Shown here: piece by piece, positions 23,511-63,895 of the stretch
Layout of the letters: the number at the start of each line of letters is the position of its first letter
Numbering within the stretch: the stretch's first letter is position 1
Virus record (IMG/VR): IMGVR_UViG_3300034104_003784
Span: 43,140-107,139 of that record
Source of the DNA: a virus
DNA length: 64,000 nucleotides
Strand: one strand, 5' to 3'
Made by a program: the position numbers and the translations under genes
The notes under the pieces: model-generated
The model's input: the letters and a program-made list of their open reading frames with translations, nothing else
Told to the model about the DNA's origin: nothing
The model's database searches: none

Positions 23511-26500
23511 ATGGCCTGTCAACTGTATGCTGAAAATGATTTAGTAGCATTATATAGTATTGTCTATGGAGAAATAAAAGATCGGATGGATAATCCAGAT
23601 CTTGCTCCATTTAATAATATTGAATTTAATAAATTCATAAAAGAAGTATATAAAGAATTTAAAGATGAGCCAAATGGTTTACTGTATGCGCAAGCTGTTC
23701 CGGATATCTTAATAGAGGTAGCTAAGGATCCAGAAGTCAGAACTTATTTAAAAAGTAAAGCAGTAGATTTTAAGTTTGATCCTGTATATGATTTATCTGT
23801 TGAATGGGATAATATTGACAAGGTATTAGAATTTGTTCAACCCAAAAGAATTAAAACTAATAAAAAACAAATTGATTCTAAAATCAAACAAAGTAATAGA
23901 GAATCTAAAGCAATTCCTCAAAAAAATGATAATGGTGATATAGTACCTTGGTCATCAGTACAGGAAAAAGCTAAAGTAGATAATCCATTAAAACTCTCTG
24001 GTCAAATTGCAGTTGCAAAGAATCCAGAGACAATGACTGAACAAGAAAGAAATGAGATTGACAATGAGAAAGTCTTGTTTGACAAAGTCATTAAGAATGT
24101 TGTATGGCTTTCTAGAAATAAAACTGAGACAGATAAAGTAATGTTAGGAGATACTCCTATAATGCTTAAAGCTCAGTCTATCAGAAGTTTAGACAAAGAA
24201 GATCTAACAGAATATGATACTACATTCTTAACAAAGAATAAAACCTACAATATAAATGTTGGTATTATTTCAGATAGAGCTGGTAATCCTATAAGATTTG
24301 ATGATGCTGGTAATGTAACTGAAACCGGTGGAAGAATTGTTTATCAATATATAAGACCTGTAGTAAATTATAATAGTAAACTTTATCTAGGAAATAGAGC
24401 AGGTTATCTATATAGTTTGATTTCTCCACAAGACTTAGTTAAGCAAGATATTAAAAATGCTTTAGATAACGGTAAAATATATAGTCAAGAAGAAAGAGAT
24501 GCTGCATATGCAGATTATAAAAACATGCAGACACAAAACATGAATGATCTTCAAAGACTAAATGAAGCTTTAGAACTTGAAAAAGATGCATATGTTTTAT
24601 TACCTATTGTTGGCGGTAGTTATGGTATTGTAGAAAAAAAATCCGAACTACTTTCAAATACTGACTTTAAAGATGATGTAGAAATGATTTATATCCATGA
24701 TACTGGTATGGAGGGTGTAAGTTATTTTATGACAAGTAAAATTAGTTCAGGAGTAGCAATAGATAATAAAATCTATTTACAAAGAATGGACATAGATGAA
24801 AAAATTGCTAGAAACATTGCAAAAATTCTAACTACTGATTTATTATCAGATGGTGAGCCTTTGAGCCCTCAAGCAAAATTAGAGTACTATGAAACATTCT
24901 TATCTAATCAGACTTCTGGTAATGGTATTACTGTTGAGTTAATACAAGTTCTAAATCAGAATAAACTTTCTGTATCATTATATGATAGAAAAACAAAACA
25001 ATCTGAATCTATAGATTTAGAATCAGAAGATGCTGAGAATAAAATATTTAATCATTTGATGAAAGTAAAAGAATTTACTGATTCTCAAGGAAATATAACA
25101 GCTCAGTATCCTGCTAGTATGAGTTACATGAGAAAGTTTGCTGTTGATGGAGCCATACAAAAAGGAGTAACTTTTACTGATTATGAGTTTACAACTAATA
25201 GATCTGGTAATCCTATCATTAGAAAAGTTGAGAAAGATTATTTTGATTTCATTAAACCATATATGAAAGTTGATTATTCAAAACCTGACATGAATTATTT
25301 TGCAGGTTTGAATTCATATCTTCAATTTGCAGTACCTTATGATTTTACTACACAAGCTAATGATTTTATTGAATTAGGAATGCCTTATGATGATTCTTTA
25401 GTCTCAGATGAAGTTGATGCTAAACCAATCAAAAAAGCAAAAGAAACTGAAGAAGGAGAAGAAGAAGAAAAAGGATTTAAACTTTCAGCTTTTGCAAGTA
25501 AGTTGCCTAATGGAAAAGTGCTTGTTTCAAATATGAATAAAGCTGATATTGTTTTAGGTCTAGGTACAGACTTTACAATGGGTGATGAAAAAATAATCCA
25601 ACAAAGAGCAAGTAAAGAAAAAAAATGGCATAGTGTAATTCTTGGTTCTAAGAAAGATGCACCTAAAGGATTTAATCCTTCAGATGAAGCTATTGATTTA
25701 ATTGTAAAAAATCTTTCTGCAATCCGTGGGAACATAATAAATGTTGTAGGTAATGATATTGCAGCCTTATATAAAAAAGGATATACTCAAGAAGATGTAG
25801 ATAAATATATCTATAACATATTAAGTAAAGTTTCAGAAAAATATCCAATTAGTAAAATCATTAGTAATGGTCAAACTGGTATAGCTGAAGCATCAATCAA
25901 AGCTGCAAAAAAACTAGGTATTCCTGTAGACATAATTGCATTTAAAGACTATGCATTAAAAACTTCTGCTCCTTATTTAACTAAAGGATATCAGAATTCA
26001 CCCAATACTAAATCAAAATTCTTAAGTAGATTTTATAATAAAAAGTCAGCTGAGTTTAAAAGAAAAACAACTAAGGTTGAGAAACCGGTTGATACTTCTA
26101 CAAAGATTGCTAAAGTAGTAAAACCTAAGTTAACAAAAGAAGAAATAAAAGTAGTAGATGCTAAGATCAATAAAATGAATATTGATAATCTACTTGATGG
26201 TCTTGATCTAAGCATGGATTTTCCAGATGTAACTCTGGATAGAAATAAAAGACAAACTGCTTTAATGACTCAGATATATGGTGATAAAGCATCATGGAAT
26301 GAAGTATTAAAGTGGTGGGAGTCTAGTCCACTTAAGAATGAAGTCTCTGTAGAAAGATTATCTTTAATTTATAACTCTGATGCATATGGTACATTTATAG
26401 CATCTGCTTCTAAATTATCAGAAGTAATCAGTCCTTCACGTAAAAAAGGTTTTCTTGCTAAGATTGAATTATATGGAGATGCATTACCTATTACATTGTA

Positions 26501-29500
26501 TCATGAATCATGGCATGCATTTTCTCAATTAGTATTAACTAGAGAAGAAAAAACAAAGCTTTATGATGAAGTACGTAATTATCCTAAATGGGAAACATTA
26601 AGTTATAAAGAGGTTGAGGAAGAATTAGCTGAAGGTTTTATTGAGTATCTTGTAGATGGAAAAAAAGCAAAAGGTTTTATTCAAAGAGTATATGATAAAT
26701 TCAAAAAAATACTTGAGTTCTTCTTTGGTAAAACATCTAACAGAGATATAACTAGACTATATGATATTCCTTTAGTTAAAGAATATTATGACAAGCTACA
26801 TACCGGTAACTTTACTATTGACACTGAGAATGCGGCAAATAATCTAATGCCTGGATTTGAAAGATTAAATAGTGCAAAAAATACGGTAACTCCATTAGAT
26901 GATGCTTATGCTGGTTATAATGAAATAACAGATAGTGAATCAAGTAAAATTGTTGATTTGTTAGATGTATTAATGGCTAGAACATTTCAGCAATATAATA
27001 CTAGGTATAATACAACAAGTGGTGCAGTTAAGTTATTGAGTAATGTTACTAACAGACAATCGTTATATACAACACTTGAAAAACAAGTAAAAGCCTTACT
27101 TGAAAAACAACATGAGGTTACTAGAGAAATTGCTCAAAAAAATGTATTGAGTAATGATCCAGATTATATCTTAGAACAAAAACATTTTGATAGACTTAAT
27201 TTGCTCACTAAAATTGTACAGAACTACGGTGTGATAGGTGAAGCATTAAGTAAAAAAACTGATAAAGGGGTTGTAGCTTTTCATATGAAACGGTCAAGAT
27301 TTAGTGTCCTTAAAGATGCTTATGTTGATGAAACAGAAGATCCTACAACAACTTTATTTTCAACAAAAGAAGGTAATAGTATTTCTGCCAAACAGTTAGC
27401 TACAGATGATACAACTATGATGTTGTCTGGTATTTTCAAACTCAAAAGAAAAAATAATGAGGATTACTTATTAGAGAAAGATGCCAATGGTGTTGAGAAT
27501 TATGTATATGATACTGATGAGTTTGGTTTGCCAATTCTTGAGCCTATGAGTGATATGTGGAATAGAGTTGCAAGAACTTTACAAGGTTCTTTTGACTATC
27601 AAGACATGCATGATAGGCTAACTCAAGGAATACCAAATAATCCTGAATTTATACAAATACTAAATATGCTTCCTAATCCATATGTTATGGGACCTGGTGC
27701 ATATAATAATAAAACAGAATTTCAGTCTGAGACAAACTTCTGGCAAGATCTTAAAAAACCTGTCATACCTTACATACAGTTAAACATCAACAAAACTATA
27801 ATAGAAAAACAAAAGTATGTTGACGGTAAAAGAATACCAGAAAAATCAAAATTTGAATCAAGATTGGCAGCTGCTAATTTTGATGTATATAAGATTATAA
27901 ATGATTGGACTACAAATTTTAATATTGCTGACACAGCAACAAATTCATATATAGTTAAAGATAAAAAGTATGGATTTAATATATTGGATGTAGATAAAAT
28001 CATAAATGATTTTTCATTAAATAAACAACTGGATCCAACTAAAGCTGTTGATTTTCTAGCTGCTTTAGGTATTCAAATGGATATGACAAGTGCAGAAATT
28101 AGAGCTGTTGTTAGAGATAAGAAAAAACCATTTGCTGCTAAATATAATATTGATTTCATATATAACAATATTAGATTAGTTTACTTATCAGCTAAGTCAA
28201 ATGATATATCTTTAAATGCTGCAGCAAATGATTTCAAGAAAGACCCTATGTATTACTTACTTAATGGTCTTCCATCAGCAATTGAAAAAGCAGCTGGTGA
28301 TAAATCAAGAGATGTAAAAAATAAAGTAACAAGATTAGCTGAATTACAAAACAGATTTTCTGATGGATATTCAAACTTCAGTGTATTAACACCGGAGAAA
28401 AATAAAGTTTGGGAACAATTTGTAGATAACACTATTACAAGAGTAGTTACCTCTATAAAGAAAGCTAAGAACTGGCAAGAATTAACCTCATATAGTGCTG
28501 ATCCAAATGGTAGATTCCAGCATATGAAATGGTTAAATGAAGTAAATAATCCAGCATCTCCATTCTCTATGATATTAAATTCAATCTTTGATTTAAATCA
28601 AATGTCTGAAACATATGGAGAAAAGTTACCAGGAGCAGAATTATTACTAGAGAATATAGGTGGTACCCAAATTATAAATAGAGAGACAAATGATTCTACT
28701 GGAACTTCAACAGCAAGTACTGATGTAACAAGTAAGTTTTTACAAGAATTACATACAATGCTGCAGTCTGGAGTACAAGAGTTCATGAGACATGCTTCTA
28801 AACAAACTGCAATGAACATAAGAGCTAAAAAGCTTAAAACATATGCAGGTAAAAAATCAAGTAATCTCTATGTAGATGTAATGGCCTTTAGTCCTAAAAA
28901 TACTGTGGCTGATAATAATCAAGGAGAAACTGAAAGTTTTAATATCATTCTTGGTTATATTGCTGCAGAAGCAGGTAGAATTTTCAGATTTAAATCTTCA
29001 CCTAATTACTTTAAAAACTTTACTGCATATAACAGAGATGTAGTAAGGAAAGATACAGGTAACACTGTGATGGCTGGTGAAGCATTTACTGCATTTGATG
29101 ATGTATTAACACCAGAAACTCAAGGTTTACTATATGATATAATAGATAAGAATATAGAGGAGGTTAATAATGAAGCTTTAAATACAGGATATTATAATAC
29201 TCAAGACTTTAATTTAAAAGAAATTATAAATGAGAATCCTGATTTAAGAAAAAAAGTAAAAGCTGATGTTATTAAATACTTTAATACTTTATCAGAAGCA
29301 AATTATTCTAGACTTGAAGATGCAAAATATGTAGATCAAAGTCTTTATGATATGGTTAAAGATCCTCAAATAAGTAAAGATCTTATTGATAAGATGCTTG
29401 TTAAAGCCTATACATATAATTCTTGGATTCATAACTTTGAAACAACTATTCTTGCATATGGTGATACAGTACAGTATAATCATGATAAAGAAGAGTTCCA

Positions 29501-32500
29501 TAAAAGAAATGCTGGTTTAGGTTCCGGAGGTAGAAGTTTTAGAGCTGACTTAAGAGCAAGGATGTATATAAACAGTCCTTTATTTGAAAAGATGTATGCT
29601 GCTAAACAAGGTTATCAGTTAGAAGCTTACAATGGTACTTTAAATACTGCTATTATTAAAGAAGAAGTTATTAAAGAATCAAAGTATAAACCGGAATATT
29701 CTGAAGCTTTAATTGAAGATTATACAAAAAGATATATTGCAGCGGGTAAATCTAAAAAAGAAGCTACAAGATTAGCAAAAGAACTTTCAGAAACTGTATT
29801 AAAAGACTATAGTAATATGAAAATTGCTGATGGTCAAGGTTGGATTAACTTTGAAGCATATAGAATGCTTAAAAATTTAGAAGGTAACTGGACGTATCAA
29901 CAAGAAGATCTGTATAAAAAAATTGTAAAAGGTGATATTATTACTGGATCAGATATTCAACAATTCTTTCCACCATATAAATTACAGTACTATGGTAATA
30001 TAAAAACAGAAGGTCTTCCTGTTGTATCTTTTCATAAATTTTCATTAGCTCCAATAATCCCAACAGTACATACTGCTGATACTAAATTAGGTCAGATACA
30101 TGACATGATGCTTAAGCAAAATGTACATTATGTTTTAATGGAAACTGGTGAAAAAGTTGGACACATAGGTAACGGTGATGAGATTATTGATAAAAATGGT
30201 AATATAGACACTTCAGTTGAATTTACTAAGAATGTAGTCTTTGCGGAATTTTTAAAGAACCAAACTGAAGTAAATTCAAAATACAAAGAAAAATCAATAT
30301 TCTCTACTCAGATGAGAAAGATGATTTTAGAAGGTTTATATGAAAATGGTGAGATTACATCTAAGGATCCTAAAGTTATAGCACTTGTTAATAATTATGT
30401 AGATAGAGTAAGTGCATATACTGAGTTACTTAAAAATGAACTTACGGATGAACTTGGTTTTAAAGTTAATGAAGCTGGTGAATACATTCCGGTTGATAAA
30501 GATAGTATTGCCAAATTAGCTAAAATGATCAGAGACACTCTCACTAGAGATGATGTTTATAGTGATAAGTTAATTGATATTATTGATGTAACTGAAGAAG
30601 GTGAATTAAGATTTGATTTGTCTTTACATCCTGAAGCTGCTAAAATTGAAAAACTTTTATTATCAGTTATTAATAAAAGAATCATTAAACAAAAAGTAAA
30701 AGGAGAACCTTTAGTGCAAAAGTCTTCAGGATTCTATGATGGATTAATTAATTTAGAATTAGATCTTGATAAAATGAATCCTGCAGCAAGAGATGCTGCT
30801 GTCAAGAAGTACATGGGTTCAAACTTCTTACCTACATATCATAAAGGAGCTGATGGTAAAACAACAGCAATGAAAGTTGCTATTTCACTTCAGGGAGATT
30901 ATGAGAATTTGCTTAACCTAGAATACAAAGGTGAACCTATCTCTACTTTAGATAGACTAAATGAAGCTATAAAAGATGATGAATGGTTAAATGATAATGA
31001 CGCTAATAACAGAAAGGCAATAACAATGGTGGGTGTTAGGATTCCAGTACAGGGTCTTAACTCTATGGAGTTCATGGAAGTATACCACTTCCTTCCACCA
31101 CAAGCTGGTAATATTATTATTCCTCCACCAGAAATTGTTGCTAAGTCCGGAGCTGACTTTGATATTGATAAGTTATCAATCTTTATGACAAGTATTGATC
31201 CTGAGGGTAATATCAAAAAATCAATGTTTGAAAAATCTGAAGATTTTTATGAAGCATTAAAGGATCCTTCAAAGTATGATATGACTAAAGAAGAGATGTA
31301 TGCTACACAAAAAGCAGGTCTTGAGAATGAACTTATTAATGATATCAGAAGTATTCTTGAATTACCACAGAATTTTGTTTCACTTATTACTCCTAATGGT
31401 ACTTACTTGGTTAAACCTATAGCAGATGAATTAGCTGAATATGTAATGGATTATAATCCTTTACAAAATATAATGTCTAATACTCCAAATTTAAGTGCTC
31501 CAGATAAAAATGGTAAACAAAAAGAAGTTATTAGTCCTACAAGAATATTTGAGGCTGGCTACAACTTATACAAACATGAGTCAAATGTAGTTGGTAAGAG
31601 AACATTAGGACTTGGAGCCATTGAAAATACATTCAATGTTATCTTTAACTCACTGGGTGCTGTTATGCCAGCGGTATATATGCATTCAAATGAAAAAGAA
31701 TTTAGAAAATCATTCTTAGGATTAAGACATCATAAAACTACTAAAAATGGTGAAGATGTTATATCTATTTCTAACATTTATGATGTAGATGGTAATAATA
31801 AAGTAGCTGATATTATATCTCAATTAATGAATGGGTGGGTGGATGTTGAAAAAGATGCTTGGGTATTCTTTGTTCAAGGTAACTATGAAGTTGCACCTAT
31901 ACTTCTTTACTTGCTTAAGACTGGTGTTCCTGTAAGAGAAGCAATATATTTTGTATCTCAACCACTTGTAAGACAGTATGTTAAAGAAAGAAGATTGATT
32001 AATAGTACTTTTGCTGAACCTTTAAGAAAATCTGCAAAAGATGTTGGTGTACCTTTCAAAGCAGCAACAAATGTTATAGCTAGAAACTTTGATAAAATGC
32101 TTCCGGATGAGTTATCTAGATATACGGCTGGTGAAAAAATGCTTAATATTTATTTTGATGCTAATGAGAGAGAAGGGGATGATAGACATTTTACAGAAGA
32201 AGAAATGCTTAACTTAATCAAGGATAGTAAAGATAATCCTGAAAAAGCAATGAGCTCTCTATCTAGAACAATGTTCTTACATTATCTGACTATTGAAAAA
32301 CAAATTGAAGGTATTACCAGACTTAAGATAGCAGCTAATCCAGATACAGCTCTTGATACTGATATAGGTCAAGTAATTCAAGCTGAATCTAACATAGATG
32401 AATTAGCAGCAGAAACAAAAATAGATCCGGATTTAAGAACCGGAATGCTATATGACTCTATCATTAGTTCATTCTTTAATACAAAAATGGTAAAAGGCTT

Positions 32501-35500
32501 AGCTAAACCATTGTTTAAGTTTAGATATGATGAAGACATACAAGATTATATACAAAATTATTTATCTGATTTTACTAATACGGCAGCTTTAAAAACTGTA
32601 TTTGGTAAAATGTATAGAGAAAAGTTTCCTATAGTATTTAGAAATGATATTTTAAGTTATTTATTTCAAAATGCTGTAAGAAAGTATAGTCTTGATAAAG
32701 AATATAGTTCATATAATTTAAAAGATTCTATTTCAGTAACTCCTGCTGCAGGTCTTAAGTTTGGTGCATTTGTTACTGAAGAAAAAGGTGTACCTACAGT
32801 AGTAGTAGATAAAGTACAAATTGAAAAAGAATTCTTTGATAAAGCTTACTTGGAAGGATCAGAAGCTCAAAACAGCTATGAGTCCCGTGGTTTATTCCCA
32901 CTTAAACCAGGACATTTTGGTAAAAATACTCCATCAAATAAAGAAGAGTATCTACGGTTTGTAATTGAGAGAGAATATCTTAGACATGTTATGCCAATGG
33001 CTGAGATAGTTAAAAGTCAAGAATTCAAAAAAGAACTTATAAATACTAAAAAGACTAGTGTTATATCAGATGAATCAAAAAACAGAAGATATACTTATGA
33101 GAAAATCTTAACTTCAAGAGCCCTAGATAATACATTAAATCCATATCACTTATTCTATGATAATGATCAAGCTTATTCTATAAGACTTGATAGAATAAAA
33201 ACTATGTATAAAAATGATTTTGTAGGTGACTATCCTGTACTATCTAGAATGATCCCGGATATCAATAACAACAAAACAATGTTTAATTTCTACCTAGATG
33301 ACAAAGATATGAACTCCTTTAAGTCTAACACTTATACACAGAACTTAAAGGATCTAGGAGATAGAAATGTTATTAAAGTAAAAGACAAAACTGAGAATGA
33401 TAGAATCAGTGATTTCTTCTCTAATATTACTTATGTTGCAATGATGCAATCTGGTACAAATAAGAGTAAGTATAACATGATAAACATAACTGATTTTGAT
33501 AAGTTCTTAGAAATTATGAATCAGGAAACTGCTAAGTTTTTAACTTCACCTAACAAGATTCAATTGCTAGTTGATTTTAAAAATAAGTTTGAAAAAACTA
33601 ATAGTCAAGCAAACAGAGACAGATACAGATTTAAAAATTATCTTACTGGATTAAATGTAGATAAGAGTCTTAATTCAAATGAAGTTTTACCATTACCTCC
33701 AACAGAATCTGATGAAACAGGTGATCAATTAGAAGAACCAATGTTCCAATTAAAAGATGCTAGAAATGCTAGTAAAGCTATTAAGGAATTAGATGATTAC
33801 TTATTGAAGTTTGTAAAACAATTTGGTGTACAAAGCAAAGAGTTTGAAACACTAAAAGATAAATTAGGAGTTGATGCTTTAGGTGCAACTGATGTGCTTA
33901 ATAAACTTATCTGGTATACAAAAGATAGAAATGCAGAGACTATACCTGAAGAAGTAGGTCATATGCTTGTGATGTTAATGGGCCCTAATCATAAGGCAAT
34001 TAAACAATTATCAAGAAATATTACAACTTGGGATGAGTATGATTCTGTATATGCGGAATATATGCCTTTATATAAAAATGAAGAGCAAGTTAAGATTGAA
34101 GCAATGGGTAAATTAATATCCAAATCTCTTGTATCAAATTATGAAGCTGCTGGATTAGACAAATCACTTATTAAAACTTTAATAAAAGCTATTGAAGATT
34201 TAATACTTAAGATGTTAAAAAACTTTGCATTTTTTCAAACTATGAATTATAATGCAAGAATTGCAGATCATATTGCACTGAATGTACTTGCTGGTAATAC
34301 TGAATACATAGCAGATATAACTGAAAAAAGACCAAAATTAAACTATGATGAGGCTGTTAAAAATAATCCTTTAGCTAAAAAGATTATTGATACTTTTGCT
34401 AAAGATCTTAAGTTTCCTCTTGTAGGTTCATTAGCAATAGCAGGTCAAGGTGAGGTTATATATAGACCAAGTGATGAGCCTATTCACGATCTTGATTTTC
34501 TTGTTGATGGTACAAATCAGCAAAATTTAGAAAATTTAGAAGAAGCTCTTAGCTTATTAAATGCCGTACCGGTACATTTTGGTTGGTCAAATACTAATAA
34601 AGGATTCACAACCTATGCTTATTATATACCTAAACCTGGGTATACTGTAGAAGTAACTGCCAGAAATAAACAAGGATGGGCATTACAAGGAGCCGTTATA
34701 GTAAAAGATTCAAAAGGAAATAAAGTTGATATTACAGCAGATACTGTAATACCAGTTGACTTTTTCACATATGAAAATTCAAAACCAAATGAAAATACAA
34801 TAAATATATTCAGTTCTTGGAATGATATTTACAAAGGTAAATCTGCTTTATCACCTCTAGGAGATAAAGAAAGATGGTTCCGAAGAGAAAAAGATCAGAA
34901 AGATTATATAAATCTAAATCCTTTTAACCGTAGTATTAAATCTGATCCTGCATTTATTTATTATCAATTAGCAGAAGAACAAAATGAACTTTCTAAACCA
35001 GCTTCAGAAAACTTGGTAGAAAGGAAAAATCTTATCTCTACTATCAATCCAAAGGTATTTGTTTATAATGATCTTTCAGGAACTGAAAAAGCATATAAGT
35101 ATATTGTAGATAATAATCCGGATGTAACTTTTGTATATCAATTTAGTCTTGGGCAAAGACAAAATTTTGAAAAACTTACAGAGAAAGAATTTAATTCTAA
35201 AAAACTAACTGGACAAGTACAATTGAAAAAACTTGCTAATAGTGCTTCTATAGGTATAATAACTGGTCAAAATAATATTGATGATGCTTTTAGTAAAACA
35301 GATCCTAAATACTACAAAGCTCTACAAAATGAGATTGAAAAAGCTATTGCTGAAATCAATCAAGTTATTCAAGATGGTGGTAATGTTGCATTTTCTATTA
35401 ATGGTTATGGTGATCCTTCTTTGATGCCTCAAGAATTATTTGTATATTTAAGTAAGAGATTATTTGAAGAATTTCAGTATCTGAATCCTGGTTCAGAGTT

Positions 35501-35603
35501 TAGTAAAGAAGTTAGTTCTCAAGTTGCTAAATATCAGCCAATTACAGATGCAGAAATTTTAGCTAAATTTGAAGGAGAAAATAACCCATTAAACTGTATA
35601 TAA
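23511..35603 (+). CDS. Virion DNA-dependent RNA polymerase, crAss-like, giant multidomain form
   Basis: A 4,030-residue protein. Residues 2549-2553 are DFDID within EIVAKSGADFDIDKLSIFM, preceded by RIPVQGLNSMEF and FLPPQAGN. This is the double-psi beta-barrel active-site region of the crAss-like virion RNA polymerase (studied in phage phi14:2), with three Mg-binding Asp. The enzyme is ejected with the DNA and transcribes early genes. Other segments: SLOG-like Rossmann unit near 705-840 (ISNGQTGIAEASIKAAKKLG); HESWH at 998-1002; EEVGH at 3480-3484, a zincin-like variant; nucleotidyltransferase-like GS...HDLDF near 3635-3662; C-terminal module near 3911-4000 (GYGDPSLMPQELFVYLSKRL). It is far longer than the roughly 2,200 residues known for phi14:2. 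Its stop overlaps the next start as TAATG. Confidence 0.88.
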   Translation: MACQLYAENDLVALYSIVYGEIKDRMDNPDLAPFNNIEFNKFIKEVYKEFKDEPNGLLYAQAVPDILIEVAKDPEVRTYLKSKAVDFKFDPVYDLSVEWDNIDKVLEFVQPKRIKTNKKQIDSKIKQSNRESKAIPQKNDNGDIVPWSSVQEKAKVDNPLKLSGQIAVAKNPETMTEQERNEIDNEKVLFDKVIKNVVWLSRNKTETDKVMLGDTPIMLKAQSIRSLDKEDLTEYDTTFLTKNKTYNINVGIISDRAGNPIRFDDAGNVTETGGRIVYQYIRPVVNYNSKLYLGNRAGYLYSLISPQDLVKQDIKNALDNGKIYSQEERDAAYADYKNMQTQNMNDLQRLNEALELEKDAYVLLPIVGGSYGIVEKKSELLSNTDFKDDVEMIYIHDTGMEGVSYFMTSKISSGVAIDNKIYLQRMDIDEKIARNIAKILTTDLLSDGEPLSPQAKLEYYETFLSNQTSGNGITVELIQVLNQNKLSVSLYDRKTKQSESIDLESEDAENKIFNHLMKVKEFTDSQGNITAQYPASMSYMRKFAVDGAIQKGVTFTDYEFTTNRSGNPIIRKVEKDYFDFIKPYMKVDYSKPDMNYFAGLNSYLQFAVPYDFTTQANDFIELGMPYDDSLVSDEVDAKPIKKAKETEEGEEEEKGFKLSAFASKLPNGKVLVSNMNKADIVLGLGTDFTMGDEKIIQQRASKEKKWHSVILGSKKDAPKGFNPSDEAIDLIVKNLSAIRGNIINVVGNDIAALYKKGYTQEDVDKYIYNILSKVSEKYPISKIISNGQTGIAEASIKAAKKLGIPVDIIAFKDYALKTSAPYLTKGYQNSPNTKSKFLSRFYNKKSAEFKRKTTKVEKPVDTSTKIAKVVKPKLTKEEIKVVDAKINKMNIDNLLDGLDLSMDFPDVTLDRNKRQTALMTQIYGDKASWNEVLKWWESSPLKNEVSVERLSLIYNSDAYGTFIASASKLSEVISPSRKKGFLAKIELYGDALPITLYHESWHAFSQLVLTREEKTKLYDEVRNYPKWETLSYKEVEEELAEGFIEYLVDGKKAKGFIQRVYDKFKKILEFFFGKTSNRDITRLYDIPLVKEYYDKLHTGNFTIDTENAANNLMPGFERLNSAKNTVTPLDDAYAGYNEITDSESSKIVDLLDVLMARTFQQYNTRYNTTSGAVKLLSNVTNRQSLYTTLEKQVKALLEKQHEVTREIAQKNVLSNDPDYILEQKHFDRLNLLTKIVQNYGVIGEALSKKTDKGVVAFHMKRSRFSVLKDAYVDETEDPTTTLFSTKEGNSISAKQLATDDTTMMLSGIFKLKRKNNEDYLLEKDANGVENYVYDTDEFGLPILEPMSDMWNRVARTLQGSFDYQDMHDRLTQGIPNNPEFIQILNMLPNPYVMGPGAYNNKTEFQSETNFWQDLKKPVIPYIQLNINKTIIEKQKYVDGKRIPEKSKFESRLAAANFDVYKIINDWTTNFNIADTATNSYIVKDKKYGFNILDVDKIINDFSLNKQLDPTKAVDFLAALGIQMDMTSAEIRAVVRDKKKPFAAKYNIDFIYNNIRLVYLSAKSNDISLNAAANDFKKDPMYYLLNGLPSAIEKAAGDKSRDVKNKVTRLAELQNRFSDGYSNFSVLTPEKNKVWEQFVDNTITRVVTSIKKAKNWQELTSYSADPNGRFQHMKWLNEVNNPASPFSMILNSIFDLNQMSETYGEKLPGAELLLENIGGTQIINRETNDSTGTSTASTDVTSKFLQELHTMLQSGVQEFMRHASKQTAMNIRAKKLKTYAGKKSSNLYVDVMAFSPKNTVADNNQGETESFNIILGYIAAEAGRIFRFKSSPNYFKNFTAYNRDVVRKDTGNTVMAGEAFTAFDDVLTPETQGLLYDIIDKNIEEVNNEALNTGYYNTQDFNLKEIINENPDLRKKVKADVIKYFNTLSEANYSRLEDAKYVDQSLYDMVKDPQISKDLIDKMLVKAYTYNSWIHNFETTILAYGDTVQYNHDKEEFHKRNAGLGSGGRSFRADLRARMYINSPLFEKMYAAKQGYQLEAYNGTLNTAIIKEEVIKESKYKPEYSEALIEDYTKRYIAAGKSKKEATRLAKELSETVLKDYSNMKIADGQGWINFEAYRMLKNLEGNWTYQQEDLYKKIVKGDIITGSDIQQFFPPYKLQYYGNIKTEGLPVVSFHKFSLAPIIPTVHTADTKLGQIHDMMLKQNVHYVLMETGEKVGHIGNGDEIIDKNGNIDTSVEFTKNVVFAEFLKNQTEVNSKYKEKSIFSTQMRKMILEGLYENGEITSKDPKVIALVNNYVDRVSAYTELLKNELTDELGFKVNEAGEYIPVDKDSIAKLAKMIRDTLTRDDVYSDKLIDIIDVTEEGELRFDLSLHPEAAKIEKLLLSVINKRIIKQKVKGEPLVQKSSGFYDGLINLELDLDKMNPAARDAAVKKYMGSNFLPTYHKGADGKTTAMKVAISLQGDYENLLNLEYKGEPISTLDRLNEAIKDDEWLNDNDANNRKAITMVGVRIPVQGLNSMEFMEVYHFLPPQAGNIIIPPPEIVAKSGADFDIDKLSIFMTSIDPEGNIKKSMFEKSEDFYEALKDPSKYDMTKEEMYATQKAGLENELINDIRSILELPQNFVSLITPNGTYLVKPIADELAEYVMDYNPLQNIMSNTPNLSAPDKNGKQKEVISPTRIFEAGYNLYKHESNVVGKRTLGLGAIENTFNVIFNSLGAVMPAVYMHSNEKEFRKSFLGLRHHKTTKNGEDVISISNIYDVDGNNKVADIISQLMNGWVDVEKDAWVFFVQGNYEVAPILLYLLKTGVPVREAIYFVSQPLVRQYVKERRLINSTFAEPLRKSAKDVGVPFKAATNVIARNFDKMLPDELSRYTAGEKMLNIYFDANEREGDDRHFTEEEMLNLIKDSKDNPEKAMSSLSRTMFLHYLTIEKQIEGITRLKIAANPDTALDTDIGQVIQAESNIDELAAETKIDPDLRTGMLYDSIISSFFNTKMVKGLAKPLFKFRYDEDIQDYIQNYLSDFTNTAALKTVFGKMYREKFPIVFRNDILSYLFQNAVRKYSLDKEYSSYNLKDSISVTPAAGLKFGAFVTEEKGVPTVVVDKVQIEKEFFDKAYLEGSEAQNSYESRGLFPLKPGHFGKNTPSNKEEYLRFVIEREYLRHVMPMAEIVKSQEFKKELINTKKTSVISDESKNRRYTYEKILTSRALDNTLNPYHLFYDNDQAYSIRLDRIKTMYKNDFVGDYPVLSRMIPDINNNKTMFNFYLDDKDMNSFKSNTYTQNLKDLGDRNVIKVKDKTENDRISDFFSNITYVAMMQSGTNKSKYNMINITDFDKFLEIMNQETAKFLTSPNKIQLLVDFKNKFEKTNSQANRDRYRFKNYLTGLNVDKSLNSNEVLPLPPTESDETGDQLEEPMFQLKDARNASKAIKELDDYLLKFVKQFGVQSKEFETLKDKLGVDALGATDVLNKLIWYTKDRNAETIPEEVGHMLVMLMGPNHKAIKQLSRNITTWDEYDSVYAEYMPLYKNEEQVKIEAMGKLISKSLVSNYEAAGLDKSLIKTLIKAIEDLILKMLKNFAFFQTMNYNARIADHIALNVLAGNTEYIADITEKRPKLNYDEAVKNNPLAKKIIDTFAKDLKFPLVGSLAIAGQGEVIYRPSDEPIHDLDFLVDGTNQQNLENLEEALSLLNAVPVHFGWSNTNKGFTTYAYYIPKPGYTVEVTARNKQGWALQGAVIVKDSKGNKVDITADTVIPVDFFTYENSKPNENTINIFSSWNDIYKGKSALSPLGDKERWFRREKDQKDYINLNPFNRSIKSDPAFIYYQLAEEQNELSKPASENLVERKNLISTINPKVFVYNDLSGTEKAYKYIVDNNPDVTFVYQFSLGQRQNFEKLTEKEFNSKKLTGQVQLKKLANSASIGIITGQNNIDDAFSKTDPKYYKALQNEIEKAIAEINQVIQDGGNVAFSINGYGDPSLMPQELFVYLSKRLFEEFQYLNPGSEFSKEVSSQVAKYQPITDAEILAKFEGENNPLNCI

Positions 35604-45576: not shown

Positions 45577-45577
45577 A

Positions 45578-53734: not shown

Positions 53735-53745
53735 TAGTCTTCAAT

Positions 53746-54787: not shown

Positions 54788-54789
54788 AA

Positions 54790-56192: not shown

Positions 56193-56207
56193 CTCTATAA
56201 AATAAAA

Positions 56208-56232: not shown

Positions 56233-56246
56233 TATTGTTACAATAA

Positions 56247-56936: not shown

Positions 56937-56956
56937 TGTTTTTTATTTTTTAATTA

Positions 56957-58320: not shown

Positions 58321-58322
58321 TT

Positions 58323-59348
58323 TTATTTTGTATTTATACTTTTTGCTTGAGCAGGTGGATTTATTTCAATTATCCGCATATTTGTTCTATCAAGTTTAAA
58401 GAAACTCATCTTAGTAACACCATTTCTTGATTTTAAGAAATGAAAAACAAGAATATCATCATCTTCAATAATATACTTATCAGGACCATAATGTCTTATT
58501 TTTCTTATAGAAGGTTTATTTATACCCAATACAACATCAGCATGTTGTAACAAAGCATCTGCTCCAAATAAATCAGAATCTAATACATAGTTACCATATT
58601 CACCATCTCTCTGTCTGTCAGGGGAATCAATATTCCTATTCAACTGACTTAACACTACAAATGCTACGGGATAATGTTTCTTCATATAAGTGAGTGCTTC
58701 ACCTAATGCATAGAGCATCTCAAACTTATCCTTTTCTTGCCCTTTAGCTACTTTAAATAGTGCTGAGTGATCTATAGTGACAAGCATGTTAGTGTATTTT
58801 TTAACTGTGTTGCCATCTTTATCTTTCACCATTACTGCCCGCTTCTCCATTTCATTATGAATGGTAGCACACATTACATCTACTGTACATGGATCATAAA
58901 TAACTTCAACAATATCTCTATCCTTGGAGTTTTTATAAAGTTCAACACACTTATCAAATACGGCATCATCTAATGGTTCTGCCTTACTCATCAATGTATT
59001 GTAATCATAACCTGTATTTAGACTCAGCTTTCTGATACCATTGGTTTCATCAAGCATTTCAAACTGGAACTTAAGAACTGTAAATTCATGGTCTTTATTA
59101 AGTTTGATGATATCATCAATTAATTGCTCCATGAATAAAGTTTTTCCGGTACCAGGCCTAGCACCCACAACGGTGATAGTTCTCCACTCTAGTCCATCAC
59201 AAAAGGCATCATTAAATTTGGGCCATGCACTTTTCAATGATTTTAAACGTCCTTTTCTTCTAGCTTCAATCTTATAGATAGCTTTTTTGAGAGCATCTCT
59301 CTCACTGACCGGTATCAAAGGTGCCGCCCCATTAAATAAATTTGCCAT
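58323..59348 (-). CDS. DnaB-type replicative helicase
   Basis: A 341-residue RecA-fold helicase with Walker A GARPGTGKT (62-70), a VTIDHSALF Walker B-like element near residue 205 and FVVLSQLNRNID near 235, the DnaB-type motif H3 pattern. It has the C-terminal ATPase domain but only about 50 residues ahead of it, so the usual N-terminal primase-interacting domain is missing or reduced. It should unwind DNA ahead of the family B polymerase as a hexamer. The preceding gene may be its loader. Confidence 0.85.
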   Translation of the reverse strand: MANLFNGAAPLIPVSERDALKKAIYKIEARRKGRLKSLKSAWPKFNDAFCDGLEWRTITVVGARPGTGKTLFMEQLIDDIIKLNKDHEFTVLKFQFEMLDETNGIRKLSLNTGYDYNTLMSKAEPLDDAVFDKCVELYKNSKDRDIVEVIYDPCTVDVMCATIHNEMEKRAVMVKDKDGNTVKKYTNMLVTIDHSALFKVAKGQEKDKFEMLYALGEALTYMKKHYPVAFVVLSQLNRNIDSPDRQRDGEYGNYVLDSDLFGADALLQHADVVLGINKPSIRKIRHYGPDKYIIEDDDILVFHFLKSRNGVTKMSFFKLDRTNMRIIEINPPAQAKSINTK

Positions 59349-59352
59349 AATG

Positions 59353-59940: not shown

Positions 59941-59941
59941 A

Positions 59942-60640
59942 TCACCAAGTTATTAAAGTTCCAGAGTTTGTTTCTACTATAGAAGATATTTTATTAAATA
60001 CATCCATACAATCCCATTTACCACCAGAATAAGCAGCAGAAGCAGGATGTTTAATATAAAACTTATAATTATTATCATTAGTAAGTTCAGACCATTCTTC
60101 AGCTTTCTTACCCATATAAACATAAATAAGTCCTGGGTTGTAGTTATTCAACCAGTCTAACAGATATGCTGTAAATTTCTGCCAAATATCATAATGAGTA
60201 CCAATCTTTCTAACTTCAACTGTAAGAGCAGTATTCAGCATAAGTATTCCTTGATTAGACCATCTTTTAAGATCTAAATCTTCACTTATAACATGATTAC
60301 CATATACAGTTCTATCAACTTCCTGTAGAATAAATTTAAGACTTGGCTGTAATTTATTTGTATTGCTGCAACTAAATGATATACCATCTGCTACACCTAA
60401 CTGTGGATACGGATCCTGACCAATAAACACAACTTGTAATTTACTGTATGGGCATTCTTCAAAAGCTCTGAATACTTGTTTTAGTGGCGGAGTCCATCTT
60501 CTATCAGACTGACTGAGATTCCATAACTGAGTAAGTATAGTATCAAAATCAGAACTAAATATAAAAGATTTAAAAACTCTATCCCAACCGCTAGGTTTAA
60601 GCTTTTCAAACATTTTTTGTTTAATTTCTTCTAATTCCAT
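59942..60640 (-). CDS. ung: Uracil-DNA glycosylase, family 1
   Basis: A 232-residue enzyme of normal family length. Motif A is VFIGQDPYPQLGVADGISFS with catalytic Asp76; motif B is KHPASAAYSGG with His198; GILMLNTALTVE lies between. In motif A, Pro79 stands where most Ung proteins have His (GQDPYH), and motif B has HPAS instead of the usual HPSP. The enzyme removes uracil from DNA. It is a regular member of crAss-like replication blocks. Its start lies 31 bases from the ATG of the oppositely oriented small gene. Confidence 0.9.
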   Translation of the reverse strand: MELEEIKQKMFEKLKPSGWDRVFKSFIFSSDFDTILTQLWNLSQSDRRWTPPLKQVFRAFEECPYSKLQVVFIGQDPYPQLGVADGISFSCSNTNKLQPSLKFILQEVDRTVYGNHVISEDLDLKRWSNQGILMLNTALTVEVRKIGTHYDIWQKFTAYLLDWLNNYNPGLIYVYMGKKAEEWSELTNDNNYKFYIKHPASAAYSGGKWDCMDVFNKISSIVETNSGTLITW

Positions 60641-60648
60641 TTTTTTGC

Positions 60649-60656
60649 TATTTTTG
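60649..60656 (+). promoter_or_regulatory. Possible -7 box (TATTTTTG) for the isolated plus-strand gene
   Basis: The only intergenic match to TAnnTTTG on the plus strand that I found near a start codon. It lies 15 bases before the ATG at 60,672, giving a very short leader. No TTTG occurs at the expected -33 distance, so the call rests on one box in an AT-rich gap. Confidence 0.35.
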
Positions 60657-60671
60657 ATAAAAATTTATATT

Positions 60672-60992
60672 ATGAGCACAGTCAAAGTTCAAGAAATGAA
60701 AAATGATGCAATCATTGAGATCAAAGTAAATAAAAATTACTATTTGATGGTTAAAGCTACACTTTTTGATTTGTTTACTATTTTAACTGAAAAAGGTTCT
60801 ACTGAAGAATCATTAAAAAGTATAGTTAATAGACCATATGCAGAATTAACTCCAAATGAAAGATCTTTTTACACAGTTACTTTACTTTTAGCTGAAATTG
60901 AAAAACAGGCAAAAGAAAATAATCTTTATGATGAAAAAGATTTTGATGCTGAAAAATTCTTAGAAGAACAAGAAAAATCTAGTGAAGATTAA
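60672..60992 (+). CDS. Isolated plus-strand conserved hypothetical protein, 106 residues
   Basis: The start is the ATG at 60,672 (MSTVKVQEMKNDAIIEIKVN); a TTG nine codons upstream is less likely because it begins in the short divergent promoter gap. The protein has a beta-type N-terminus, a helical middle (YYLMVKATLFDLFTIL, YTVTLLLAEIEKQ) and an acidic C-terminal end. I recall similar small proteins in crAss-like phages, possibly structural. It is the only plus-strand gene inside the minus-strand block, and its 3' end overlaps the convergent neighbour by 14 bases, so it may be switched on at a different time. Confidence 0.7.
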   Translation: MSTVKVQEMKNDAIIEIKVNKNYYLMVKATLFDLFTILTEKGSTEESLKSIVNRPYAELTPNERSFYTVTLLLAEIEKQAKENNLYDEKDFDAEKFLEEQEKSSED

Positions 60993-61332
60993 TATTATAA
61001 TTTTCACTACCTATTTGTATACAAGCTTCAATAGCTAACATCAAATCACTTTTACTACAATCCCCAAAAGACTTGCCGGCTAGACCGGCATGTTCTTTTA
61101 TAACCAGTTTCATTTCATCAAAAGTATAACCAGACTCTTTAGCTAACTCTCTAATACAAGCATGTACTTTTGCAAGTTGTGCTTTACTGTGATCAGTGCT
61201 GTATATTTCAATAAACATATCCACTTTCTCACCTTCTTTTAACTTCTCTACAAAGATCTCATATGCAAGTTTATCTTGAGGACTTGCAAATGTTAATTTA
61301 CCATTCTTTTTAATAAACTTTCCTGTATGCAT
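60979..61332 (-). CDS. Putative recombination-associated protein, NinB-like pattern
   Basis: A 117-residue product from the ATG at 61,332; the upstream TTG start is rejected because it would overlap the preceding gene for no gain. The core HSKAQLAKVHACIRELAKES followed by GYTFDEMKLVIKEHAGL resembles the Q-x-x-x-H/L-x-A-x-I-R-E and YT-E/D-M-K pattern of NinB-like phage recombination proteins. I hold this only weakly. The C-terminal SKSDLMLAIEACIQIG helix is well formed. Its end overlaps the convergent plus-strand gene. Confidence 0.5.
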   Translation of the reverse strand: MHTGKFIKKNGKLTFASPQDKLAYEIFVEKLKEGEKVDMFIEIYSTDHSKAQLAKVHACIRELAKESGYTFDEMKLVIKEHAGLAGKSFGDCSKSDLMLAIEACIQIGSENYNINLH

Positions 61333-61334
61333 AT

Positions 61335-61592
61335 CTAACAAATTATATTATTCATCACTTCTAAAAACTGTACATAATGATCTACACTTTTTATCTCTAT
61401 AGCAGGAATATCAAATGATTTTAAAACCCAATGATTATCTTCTACATCAATATTATCAGTGCTATGAAGTTCTACTCCACTACAAAGTTCTTTATGATAA
61501 TAATAATAATCATAGCCATTTTGACTATCATGATCTGTAATCTCAACTTTTTCAAAGCCAAGATCAATTAATTCTTGTTCTGTCATATACAT
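61335..61592 (-). CDS. Small hypothetical protein with LGFEKVEITDHDS start
   Basis: An 85-residue product (MYMTEQELIDLGFEKVEITDHDS, then YDYYYYHKELCSG). The opening EELxxLGFExV pattern followed by a Tyr-rich strand is common among short accessory proteins of Bacteroidota phages. The second Met (two codons in) is an alternative start. The C-terminal part (IEIKSVDHYVQFLEVMNNII) is a predicted helix. No function known. Confidence 0.6.
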   Translation of the reverse strand: MYMTEQELIDLGFEKVEITDHDSQNGYDYYYYHKELCSGVELHSTDNIDVEDNHWVLKSFDIPAIEIKSVDHYVQFLEVMNNIIC

Positions 61593-61631
61593 TTATTTAA
61601 GTCCACCACAATAAATCATAGCATTAATCTT

Positions 61632-61675
61632 TTCTTGATTTATAAACCCTATAAAATCAAGAATCTTTTTTAATT
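61632..61675 (+). terminator. Plus-strand terminator-like hairpin
   Basis: TTCTTGATTT (61,632-61,641) pairs perfectly with AAATCAAGAA (61,654-61,663), followed on the plus strand by TCTTTTTTAATTTTTTC. On the minus strand there is no U tract. It could end plus-strand transcripts that start near 60,660 and run antisense across two minus-strand genes. It overlaps the end of the 64-residue gene. Confidence 0.55.
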
Positions 61676-61851
61676 TTTTCATTCTTTAAATATTTTTTTT
61701 CAAACTTTTCCCAACCTTTTGGATCAAATTGTGTGATTAACAAATCAAGTTTTATTTCTTCTTCATGCTCATCACACATTCCAATCCCTTTAATATCTAA
61801 ATCAGGACTATACCTTTTGGTAGCCGGAGATCCACATTTAACACATGTCAT
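61657..61851 (-). CDS. Small zinc-finger-like protein
   Basis: A 64-residue protein with CVKCGSPATKRY (Cys3, Cys6) and MCDEHEEEI (Cys26, His29), a plausible CxxC...CxxH zinc site. The C-terminus is helical and Lys-rich. Its ATG overlaps the stop of the preceding gene as ATGA. Function unknown; similar short zinc proteins often bind nucleic acid or partner proteins. Confidence 0.6.
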   Translation of the reverse strand: MTCVKCGSPATKRYSPDLDIKGIGMCDEHEEEIKLDLLITQFDPKGWEKFEKKYLKNEKIKKDS

Positions 61852-62252
61852 AACTTATTATATAAAAATGTTTCAGGACTAATTATATCTGTAGTATAAT
61901 TAATATCCTTATACTTTTCATTGTTAAGGGTCCATAATCCCATTTCTTTTATTCTTTTATCTCTTAAAGTAATTATAGAATATGCAGTAAGATAAGCATT
62001 GTCATCATCTGAACTTAGGAACATTGCCAAGAGATTCTGTTTCTCATCTTCTGTAACATATCCTGTTTTTACTAATAAGTTTAACTCAGATAGAAAAATA
62101 AATGGTCTAAAACTCCCTTTCTTAGTACCATGTGTGTACATATACCATAAGTACCCCATATTACTGTCTTCTACTTTACATACCATATGATGTTCATGGC
62201 ATATATTTTCAATTAGGCTTGTAATCTTTTGGTCTTTAAAATATCTTATCAT
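61848..62252 (-). CDS. Hypothetical protein with SSDDDNAYLTA motif
   Basis: A 134-residue protein. MIRYFKDQKITSLIENICHE is followed by a Trp/Tyr/Gly-rich middle and then LLAMFLSSDDDNAYLTAYSI, a variant of the motif in the 136- and 457-residue proteins of this block. It overlaps its neighbours on both sides (ATGA), so it is a firmly embedded operon member. No catalytic signature was recognised. The repeated motif suggests a shared helical interaction unit. Confidence 0.6.
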   Translation of the reverse strand: MIRYFKDQKITSLIENICHEHHMVCKVEDSNMGYLWYMYTHGTKKGSFRPFIFLSELNLLVKTGYVTEDEKQNLLAMFLSSDDDNAYLTAYSIITLRDKRIKEMGLWTLNNEKYKDINYTTDIISPETFLYNKL

Positions 62253-62518
62253 GATCTTAAAAATTTAAATACTGCTACTAATTTATCATACTCTTCCATT
62301 ACCCACTGTGGAGTAAATACAGCTTCATGACCTTTAAGAAAAACAATAACATTATCAATTACAAACATTTTTATATCTGCATACCAGTTATTGTGATAAA
62401 GTAATACAAATTCAATGTTAATATCTTTATACACATACTTATGATGATTATTACTGTTTCTGTAAAACCCATACTTCACAAGCTCTTTACCTATTAATTC
62501 TGTATCTCTAAGTGTCAT
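62249..62518 (-). CDS. Small hypothetical protein, 89 residues
   Basis: Starts MTLRDTELIGKELVKYGFYR and continues with a compact alpha/beta pattern (HHKYVYKDINIEFVLLYHNN, then DIKMFVIDNVIVFLKGH). Weakly similar in layout to the 95-residue gene at 53,746-54,033. It sits two bases after the radical SAM gene stop and overlaps the next gene. Function unknown. Confidence 0.55.
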   Translation of the reverse strand: MTLRDTELIGKELVKYGFYRNSNNHHKYVYKDINIEFVLLYHNNWYADIKMFVIDNVIVFLKGHEAVFTPQWVMEEYDKLVAVFKFLRS

Positions 62519-62520
62519 AA

Positions 62521-63390
62521 CTAAAATATGTATCTAATTGTATTCCAAGGAATATGTTCATCATGTAATTTAGTCCATTTTTTAATATAATCAGCTTTTC
62601 TTTTGTGTTCATATCTAAGATTTGATCCACCATACTCAGAAGTTTTGCTTTCTTGTATTTTAGGTACCCAAAGTAATTCTTCTCCTGGAAGTTTATGCTG
62701 TAGATTATAAAAGTGCTTCTGTTCATTATGAGTAAGAAATATTACTTCAGCTTTTACATCATTAGTATTCCATTTATTAAAGGCAGAATGTCTGTTGATT
62801 ATATGAAACAAAAACTCATACTCTATAAGCCAATTATCATGAACTATTACTGGACTAAAATTTAAGTGAACTTCATATCCTGCTCTTAAAAACAAGTATA
62901 TAGCATTTAACCTTTCATCAAGAGAACTTGTATTAGGTTCAAGAACTTTTCTCCATTTCTCCGGCATAAGACTAAATCTTACTCTAATCTTACCTTCTGG
63001 ATTAAACTTCAATAAATCATGATTTACATACTTAGTAGCAAATGAACCCATAGCAAGTGGATGATCTCTGAAGAACTCAAATATCTTCTCCCATTCATGA
63101 AATTTAGCATGTAGAGCAAAGTCTTCATTACAGGATATATCATAAGTAATATACTCTCCTGTTTGATTAGGTTTCTCTACTGTAGAAAAATAAGCATGTG
63201 AATTAATCTCTGTCAGGATATCCATAGTATTAGTAGCTACAGAAAGTCCTTCCGGTTTGTGTCTTTTCATGTAACAGTAAGTACAATTATAAAGACAACC
63301 ATGTCCAAAACTTGGTGAAATAAAGTCAGTACTTCTTCCGGAAGGTCTAATAACCATAGACTTCCTAGTAACTTTTTCTACTACAGACAT
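62521..63390 (-). CDS. SPL-family radical SAM protein
   Basis: A 289-residue protein with GCLYNCTYCYM, that is Cys32-x3-Cys36-x2-Cys39, binding a 4Fe-4S cluster for radical S-adenosylmethionine chemistry. The opening (IRPSGRSTDFISPSFGHGC) and the later RVRFSLMPEKW and VHLNFSPVIVHDNWL match spore photoproduct lyase-like proteins. Members repair UV-induced thymine photoproducts, but many phage and bacterial relatives have unknown substrates. It is shorter than Bacillus SplB. Together with uracil-DNA glycosylase it suggests DNA damage reversal in the phage or host. There is a 69-base gap upstream with no clear promoter. Confidence 0.78.
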   Translation of the reverse strand: MSVVEKVTRKSMVIRPSGRSTDFISPSFGHGCLYNCTYCYMKRHKPEGLSVATNTMDILTEINSHAYFSTVEKPNQTGEYITYDISCNEDFALHAKFHEWEKIFEFFRDHPLAMGSFATKYVNHDLLKFNPEGKIRVRFSLMPEKWRKVLEPNTSSLDERLNAIYLFLRAGYEVHLNFSPVIVHDNWLIEYEFLFHIINRHSAFNKWNTNDVKAEVIFLTHNEQKHFYNLQHKLPGEELLWVPKIQESKTSEYGGSNLRYEHKRKADYIKKWTKLHDEHIPWNTIRYIF

Positions 63391-63459
63391 ATTATTCTAG
63401 ATTTTTATATATACAGCTGATTAGTGCTACATATATTAATTCAAATAGTATTCTCATGA

Positions 63460-63478
63460 CTATTCTGATTTAAAGGTT
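63460..63478. repeat. 19-bp direct repeat, copy 1
   Basis: CTATTCTGATTTAAAGGTT at the 3' end of the 70-residue gene; identical to 63,897-63,915. On the minus strand it encodes the last residues TFKSE plus the TAG stop. Confidence 0.8.
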
Positions 63479-63672
63479 TCATTGTAGTATTGTTCTGGTT
63501 GATAACATTGAGAACCATAATCATTGCTCCCTTGATTATAAGCATCCATTACCTGCTCTTCAAACATTTTATTGGCTTTTTTAAATACTTCTTCTTTTTG
63601 CCAAATGAACATTTCCTTCCAATGTTTAGATTTAATCTGGTCTTCTAACCATTTAACTGCACTCTGTTGCAT
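63460..63672 (-). CDS. Small hypothetical protein of Bacteroidota-phage type
   Basis: A 70-residue product MQQSAVKWLEDQIKSKHWKE... with NKMFEEQVMDAYNQGSND and a C-terminal YYNETFKSE. The AVxWLxxQI...ExQxxxAYxxG...YYxxTF pattern is very common among short genes in Bacteroidota phages, function unknown. Its last codons are part of a 19-base direct repeat shared with the gene two positions upstream. Confidence 0.65.
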   Translation of the reverse strand: MQQSAVKWLEDQIKSKHWKEMFIWQKEEVFKKANKMFEEQVMDAYNQGSNDYGSQCYQPEQYYNETFKSE

Positions 63673-63673
63673 C

Positions 63674-63895
63674 TTATTCCATTGTTAGGTTGCTATCAGA
63701 TAAAATCTCCCGGATCTTATCTCTTAAATTTTCATAAGCCTCTCCTACTTCAGAAGGAAGTTTCTCATTATACTTAACTTGATTTCTAAGATATTGATCT
63801 ATTTCCCATATAGCAGCTCTATACTTCCACCCATCTAATGCTACCTGAGCATCAGATGCAGCATCTTCATCTGTAAATTCAATTATTACTTTCAT
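63674..63895 (-). CDS. Small hypothetical protein, 73 residues
   Basis: The product is MKVIIEFTDEDAASDAQVAL..., with a beta strand followed by helices (YRAAIWEIDQYLRNQVKYNE and ENLRDKIREILSDSNL). The layout of a short strand, a helix with WxxDxxLR and a charged tail resembles small phage proteins often seen beside MazG or DNA metabolism genes. It starts two bases after the preceding stop. Function unknown. Confidence 0.6.
   Translation of the reverse strand: MKVIIEFTDEDAASDAQVALDGWKYRAAIWEIDQYLRNQVKYNEKLPSEVGEAYENLRDKIREILSDSNLTME

Follow-up and report, generated by a model that had tools for sequence, protein, structure and literature searches.

A phage protein of 289 residues, encoded in a replication block, is a homologue of spore photoproduct lyase (SPL), and all features examined place it in the Pfam SPL family; it falls outside both NCBI SPL equivalogs, and SplB itself is excluded as its identity. 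SPL is a textbook repair enzyme tied to endospores, and the phage enzyme would probably reverse a thymine–thymine lesion made by UV, either spore photoproduct or something closely similar, in phage DNA, early in infection and independently of light. Sequence comparison groups the gene with other short-form SPLs in a clade that is mainly viral. A sequence-only reading of this DNA had named the family and proposed repair of UV damage in partnership with uracil-DNA glycosylase (UDG); the family stands, UV repair is likely only, and the pairing with UDG is weaker than claimed. The short form, the altered hairpin, the many viral carriers and the exclusion of SplB proper had been missed.

The phage genome and its replication block

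The gene lies in IMG/VR virus record IMGVR_UViG_3300034104_003784, of 107,139 bases. The window, that is, the whole stretch of DNA analysed (64,000 nucleotides), is the right-hand 64 kb of this record, and positions are given from its first letter.

23511..35603, plus strand: ORF of 4030 aa with the ADFDIDK motif expected for crAss-like RNA polymerase; outside the SPL system
58323..59348, minus strand: DnaB-like helicase in the replication block, with its best relatives in crAss-like phages
59942..60640, minus strand: UDG, five small ORFs downstream of the SPL gene; Pfam UDG, 40.5 bits
61848..62252, minus strand: ORF of 134 aa, with a 4-bp overlap with the 89-aa gene; accompanies SPL in 75 of the 82 loci searched
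62249..62518, minus strand: ORF of 89 aa, 2 bp downstream of the SPL gene
62521..63390, minus strand: SPL-family radical SAM gene, ATG start, 289 aa, short form

The last of these is a real ORF with exactly the limits and strand first assigned to it. It heads a run of small genes separated by 2-bp gaps or joined by 4-bp overlaps, on the strand of the replication genes, and the 89-aa gene is probably cotranscribed with it. The replication-block setting described earlier is confirmed by genes for DnaB, a Toprim primase, a Sak4-like ATPase, a family B polymerase and UDG (best NCBIfam score 144.9 bits, under the cut-off of 162); an exonuclease gene also lies in this neighbourhood.

The helicase has 36 matches, and those with names among the matches listed are uncultured crAss-like gut phages such as cr10_1, names that we take to denote crAss-like phages. 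A DxDxD motif in the RNA polymerase is described as a signature of crAss-like phages (PMC7886860). Judged by its giant RNA polymerase ORF with DxDxD and by its DnaB relatives, the phage genome is crAss-like; terminase, portal and capsid genes of crAss-like type would be expected in the other 43 kb of the record. The same study gives Bacteroidetes as the hosts of crAss-like phages (PMC7886860), and a related phage contig (L082) was binned in a Bacteroidetes metagenome-assembled genome (MAG). It is from this kinship and this contig that we infer, for the phage of the window, the non-spore-forming host that had been claimed outright.

Two other features of the genome were noted. At 50988–53349, within the replication block, a gene for a MoxR-like AAA ATPase adjoins one for a DUF2201 metallopeptidase/VWA protein, and the same pair occurs near SPL in a second set of viral loci (described below). 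A second giant ORF (35603–43294, 2563 aa) contains DFDID, which may mark another RNA polymerase-like subunit or be a chance match, and has a LysM match near its end.

Family membership and predicted structure

The phage protein matches Pfam PF20903 (SPL) with 84.3 bits (gathering threshold 27; E 9.6e-24) and has a sub-threshold Radical_SAM match. Its best NCBIfam model is TIGR03886, the SPL family unconnected with sporulation, with 300.7 bits over profile positions 62–346 of 346, short of the cut-off of 437.55. This is well ahead, in bits, of the SplB equivalog TIGR04070, which gives 76.7 bits and whose cut-off of 400 is likewise not reached. None of the nine related records searched (eight phage records and one MAG) passed the TIGR03886 cut-off. 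Among sequences of solved structures, a single-sequence search gave only SPL below E 1; in a profile search, SPL chains had E values of 2e-17 or better and nothing else fell below 0.2.

An AlphaFold model built on a deep viral alignment (pLDDT 91.7, pTM 0.90) replaced an earlier one from 42 sequences, which had a pLDDT of 65.7 and was weak at residues 1–49. When the structure comparison that had been proposed was run, the SPL fold came out best and the next fold far behind (Z 30.8 versus 14.4). Six solved SPL entries superpose at Z 30.7–30.8 over 277 residues (2.1–2.2 Å); the fold is thus that of SplB from B. subtilis and G. thermodenitrificans (PDB 4FHC, 4FHD and 4FHF; Z 30.8). The next radical SAM folds, RlmN, PFL-activase and viperin, lie at about Z 14, and in Foldseek the E value was 5.7e-20 for SPL versus 5.1e-4 for the next fold. 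Radical SAM enzymes are versatile, and with RlmN, viperin and PFL-activase as the next-best folds the substrate might be RNA, protein or a small molecule; given that SPL scores 16 Z units higher and that SPL-specific residues are kept, such a substrate is very improbable.

Catalytic residues and altered regions

Three stretches of the gene were aligned with SplB.

63271..63297, minus strand: cluster motif CLYNCTYCY, codons 32–40; [4Fe-4S] ligands C32, C36 and C39, plus Y38 and Y40
63130..63132, minus strand: Cys codon 87, which aligns with C141, the H-atom donor in B. subtilis SplB
62611..62646, minus strand: region of the SplB C-terminal hairpin, codons 249–260

The reference was SplB of B. 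velezensis, which is numbered in agreement with the B. subtilis residues named in PMC3742179. The CxxxCxxC cluster reported earlier is present as C32-x3-C36-x2-C39, and its cysteines correspond to C91, C95 and C98 of SplB; Y38 corresponds to Y97, Y40 to Y99 and C87 to C141. All of these are found in each of 83 viral homologues spanning 41–94% identity to the window protein, except for Y40, which is found in 82. In a separate alignment of 81 rows, C87 is present in every row, one row has I/N at two catalytic positions, and three rows (L026, L058 and L065), in which ATG-only ORF calls began at M41, are gapped at the cluster. Active-site residues of a different radical SAM family had been named as the finding that would speak against SPL; this check was run, and the equivalents of SplB C141, Y97 and Y99 were all present. 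The assignment to the SPL family is therefore upheld by fold, by profile and by catalytic residues beyond the cluster.

Besides the cluster, both tyrosines and the H-donor cysteine, the phage protein shares with SplB K175, S196, K302, Y313 and Y340, which all 53 viral rows of another alignment retain. It is unlike SplB in being phage-borne, in its overall identity of about 22%, in the loss of N-terminal sequence and in three substituted residues. N198 is replaced by M in all 53 viral rows and K310 by N in 51 of them, and R305 is replaced by Q, E or S, with Q in most viral homologues. In the hairpin of the window protein K249, Y253 and Y260 are kept, R305 has become E252 and K310 has become N257; around SplB H273/R274 two alignments disagree by two columns. 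Residues R304/Y305 of G. thermodenitrificans SPL are presumably in the lesion-flipping hairpin. The phage protein begins at about SplB residue 60, so that some 60 N-terminal residues of SplB and of TIGR03886 proteins are missing. A passage of a review describes the lesion-flipping hairpin of SPL in general terms, with no residue numbers.

The TIGR03886 proteins are the closest bacterial long form (33–47% identity to the phage protein) and are carried by Bacteroidota, Deinococcus, Alphaproteobacteria and Streptomyces. They have the motifs FLTHN, (S/K)QxGGxNxRY and IRYxF in common with the phage protein; they are 343–386 aa long with the N-terminal region, and several have Glu at the H-donor position.

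Proposed reaction and the identity of the lesion

The preserved relay residues imply chemistry like that of SplB, for which the steps are established (PMC3742179): SAM cleavage, abstraction of the C6 proR hydrogen from a carbon of dihydrothymine type, fragmentation, return of hydrogen from Cys and a tyrosine relay. In SplB, the C141A variant yields a sulfinate adduct and is inactive in vivo (PMC3742179). By analogy, a 5′-deoxyadenosyl radical from SAM cleavage would abstract the C6 proR hydrogen of the lesion, and the methylene bridge would then break by C–C fragmentation. C87 would give a hydrogen back to the thymine methyl radical, and Y40 would relay the radical back, with SAM regenerated. 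The gene would be expressed with the replication operon, the target would be phage DNA and the electrons would be supplied by the host. Repair of UV damage in phage DNA, as the sequence-only reading had it, is likely: the catalytic residues, the SPL fold and purifying selection speak for it, as do the gene's place at the head of a tight run on the replication strand and several observations given below, namely the repair neighbours of bacterial relatives, the predicted SOS networks, the UVC-induced SPL gene and the lack of photolyase and pyrimidine-dimer glycosylase domains in SPL-bearing phage records.

The altered hairpin, common to the TIGR03886 proteins, leaves room for a variant lesion or DNA context. 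The TIGR03886-like proteins and the viral short clade could use the same chemistry on another lesion, either a thymine-derived adduct or a lesion of single-stranded or replicating DNA. The changes N198 to M, R305 to Q or E and K310 to N are common to both groups, the short clade has lost the N-terminal region, and TIGR03886 proteins occur in non-sporulating bacteria; however, the viral clade keeps the whole catalytic relay, an argument for the same leaving-group chemistry, and we regard another lesion as possible but unlikely.

SplB is spore-specific in sporulating bacteria, which counts against repair of UV damage by the phage enzyme, as do the loss of R305 and K310, the N198M change, the lack of a SOS-box excess, the dispensability of the gene and the presence of Glu at the C141 position in some bacterial relatives (see below). 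The nature of the lesion bears on this as well: spore photoproduct arises in DNA that is dry or in the A form, including that of desiccated bacteria that do not form spores; in hydrated B-DNA it is not the main lesion, which again counts against a UV-repair role (PMC12029717).

The enzyme might instead act on a modified base, in either phage DNA or host DNA, and serve in hypermodification, in its removal or in counter-defence, with no UV role. Phages often use enzymes of replication blocks for base modification, and the SPL gene is located in such a block. Thymine modification has been proposed for SplB-like and UDG-linked radical SAM proteins (PMC3765255). Against this, no thymidylate hydroxymethylase, glucosyltransferase or similar enzyme was found among most ORFs of 44353–63895, which were scanned (in the other 43 kb of the record, the search covered named families only), and a relay with an H-donor Cys is a repair-type design. 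A modified base is accordingly an improbable substrate.

Distribution of short-form SPLs

Two scans of viral sequences confirmed at least 598 relatives (599 candidate stretches listed) and at least 576 relatives (600 listed); the two sets may overlap, and 80 loci were fetched from each. Members of the second set (L138–L217) are about 50–54% identical to a bacterial short form, and Cys occupies the C141 position in every one of the 80; representatives of their commonest neighbour families include an SF2 helicase, a DnaB-like protein and a family A polymerase. In a tree of 70 rows, which sampled every second member of the second set (40 of 80), the crAss-like SPLs form one clade (SH-aLRT 99) inside the short-form clade (97), which also contains three chromosomal bacterial proteins near its base. 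The trees are rooted on a long branch, so that either viruses or bacteria may have had the short form first. The chromosomal short forms (L084, L116 and L131, from G187, G665 and G476) likewise have no N-terminal region and have Cys as H-donor, at 43–48% identity, but they differ from the phage protein in cluster spacing (CX3CX4C versus CX3CX2C) and lie on large bacterial contigs with no phage replication block. The unusual CX3CX4C spacing, due to a two-residue insert, was also seen in three of the 80 loci of the second viral set.

Among loci chosen by DnaB with at least 7 kb of upstream sequence, SPL is present in 20 of 24. The other four share the remaining listed genes in collinear order, and family searches of their whole records, which may be fragments, found no SPL. 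With SPL missing in 4 of 24 collinear relatives, the gene is common but dispensable. Its absence from some collinear relatives would suit a decayed or passenger gene with no function, a reading already contradicted by conservation: dN/dS (Nei–Gojobori) is 0.09–0.31 in all eight pairs computed, so selection on the phage SPL gene is purifying, and the active site is kept in the 83 viral sequences, the most distant of which are about 41% identical. That the gene is a mere passenger is thus hardly credible.

Other forms of the family were few in the viral scans. SplB proper was rejected as a viral gene: in a scan with SplB-like sequences one of 30 candidates was confirmed (L218), and this sole match, being 81% identical to Bacillus SplB, is most likely a bacterial flank. 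Long TIGR03886-like viral forms exist but were few in the scan for them: 56 candidates gave 23 loci, and these include some short forms.

The H-donor Cys is retained by the viral short forms sampled; L236 (41% identity) is the one exception seen. Bacterial relatives, counted as 27 distinct genes of long and short form after removal of duplicates (L132–L136 and L122) and of the phage row L082, have Cys in 19 and Glu in seven, and one broken gene is unparsed. Thus, SPL-like proteins can depart from SplB chemistry. The Glu-for-Cys change (GEN.D for GCN.D) is found in bacterial L096, L097, L098, L102, L126, L127 and L129 and, among viruses, in L221–L228, L236, L238 and L239, roughly half of a viral group made up mostly of long forms. 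Glu-type relatives keep the cluster and, in nearly all parsed rows, both tyrosines; judged from this replacement, they may run a different chemistry.

Several arrangements were seen in single genomes or contigs. In one Bacteroidota genome a TIGR03886 gene (L134:6895-7926, minus strand) and a SplB-like gene (L134:8130-9212, plus strand) are divergent with about 200 bp between them, and in genome G471 a TIGR03886 gene and a SplB-like gene lie within about 2 kb. The TIGR03886 gene of G551 (L115, L122 and L136) occupies two overlapping frames and is apparently broken. Gut phage contig MT835770.1 (L130:2070-3155) encodes an SPL-like protein of about 25% identity that has no Cys at the C141 position and groups with bacterial L087. 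On the short viral contig L038, ORFs at 3081 and 4040 both match the SPL query and are perhaps a partial duplicate.

Linkage to uracil-DNA glycosylase and other repair genes

UDG lies downstream of SPL on the same strand in all 42 loci with at least 4 kb of downstream sequence, drawn from 80 loci fetched by SPL similarity, and it is present in 23 of the 24 loci chosen by DnaB. Of the four loci that lack SPL, three keep UDG and one has neither; two of the three (L251 and L252) look like one lineage. The synteny supports the pairing of SPL and UDG as a damage-handling set, but the persistence of UDG in three of four collinear loci lacking SPL speaks against it. UDG as an obligate partner was therefore rejected, and the synteny may reflect shared ancestry. 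Of the 80 loci of the second viral set, 71 have at least 700 nt of downstream sequence; seven of the 80 contain UDG, which is directly adjacent in four. These four loci represent two lineages (SPLs 67–69% apart), with a divergent UDG immediately after SPL that in three cases scores just under the Pfam cut-off. The adjacent divergent UDGs are a weak but independent hint of linkage.

A comparable association is that of the UDG-linked radical SAM protein COG4277 with the UDG COG1573 in Bacteroidetes SOS networks, likewise a repair radical SAM protein with a UDG (PMC8565304). COG4277 is a different family from the phage SPL, and no NCBIfam model for it was among the seven families at E ≤ 1. We take the NCBIfam model for the UDG-linked radical SAM protein to be TIGR03916.

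Membership of Bacteroidetes SOS networks is predicted for both splB and UDG (PMC8565304), and SplB-like genes belong to the SOS networks found in alpha- and beta-Proteobacteria (PMC3323433). Two Bacteroidetes LexA motifs (CTAA-N5-TTAG and GGA-N5-TCC) and two others were counted in the 250 bp that precede the SPL gene; the loci covered were 81 crAss-like, 80 from other viruses and 35 bacterial. No enrichment was found, with counts at or near the shuffled expectation, and SOS control of the phage SPL gene was rejected for this reason.

A light-dependent partner was also rejected, since photolyase domains, and likewise pyrimidine-dimer glycosylase domains, are absent from the phage records searched: DNA_photolyase and Pyr_excise domains were not found in any of nine SPL-bearing records, nor the FAD-binding photolyase domain in any of five records searched, four of which lack SPL. 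In bacteria, the flanks of three plasmid-borne, annotated full-length relatives (43–49% identical to query L083) were inspected, and two showed a UV or repair context. A photolyase gene directly precedes the SPL relative of Streptomyces NBC_00184, and a DEAD/DEAH helicase gene and a DUF790 gene follow that of D. gobiensis, a pair that we presume to resemble XPB–Bax1. No repair neighbour was seen in the flanks of the Aureimonas relative, and a BLAST search with the Streptomyces photolyase found no further copy in the fetched flanks. In a non-spore-forming bacterium, UVC is reported to induce a gene named "SPL family protein" (PMC12029717).

SPLs outside spores

No report of a phage SPL was found among the listed results of searches of the open-licence literature or by a term search of the main paper on crAss-like phages, and the listed results also contained no statement that capsid DNA favours spore photoproduct. 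As a tentative and rather doubtful proposal, densely packed capsid DNA would resemble spore DNA in being prone to form spore photoproduct in sunlight, viral short SPLs would reverse the lesion in the dark when the genome enters the cell, and viruses rather than spores would be the commonest carriers of SPL in water. The viral clade would further predict that UV acting on virions produces lesions other than cyclobutane dimers, with consequences for virus survival in water. A mainly viral clade with the full SPL relay, located in replication blocks and under purifying selection, raises the question of which lesion SPLs repair outside spores, and a protein of 289 residues makes that question testable.
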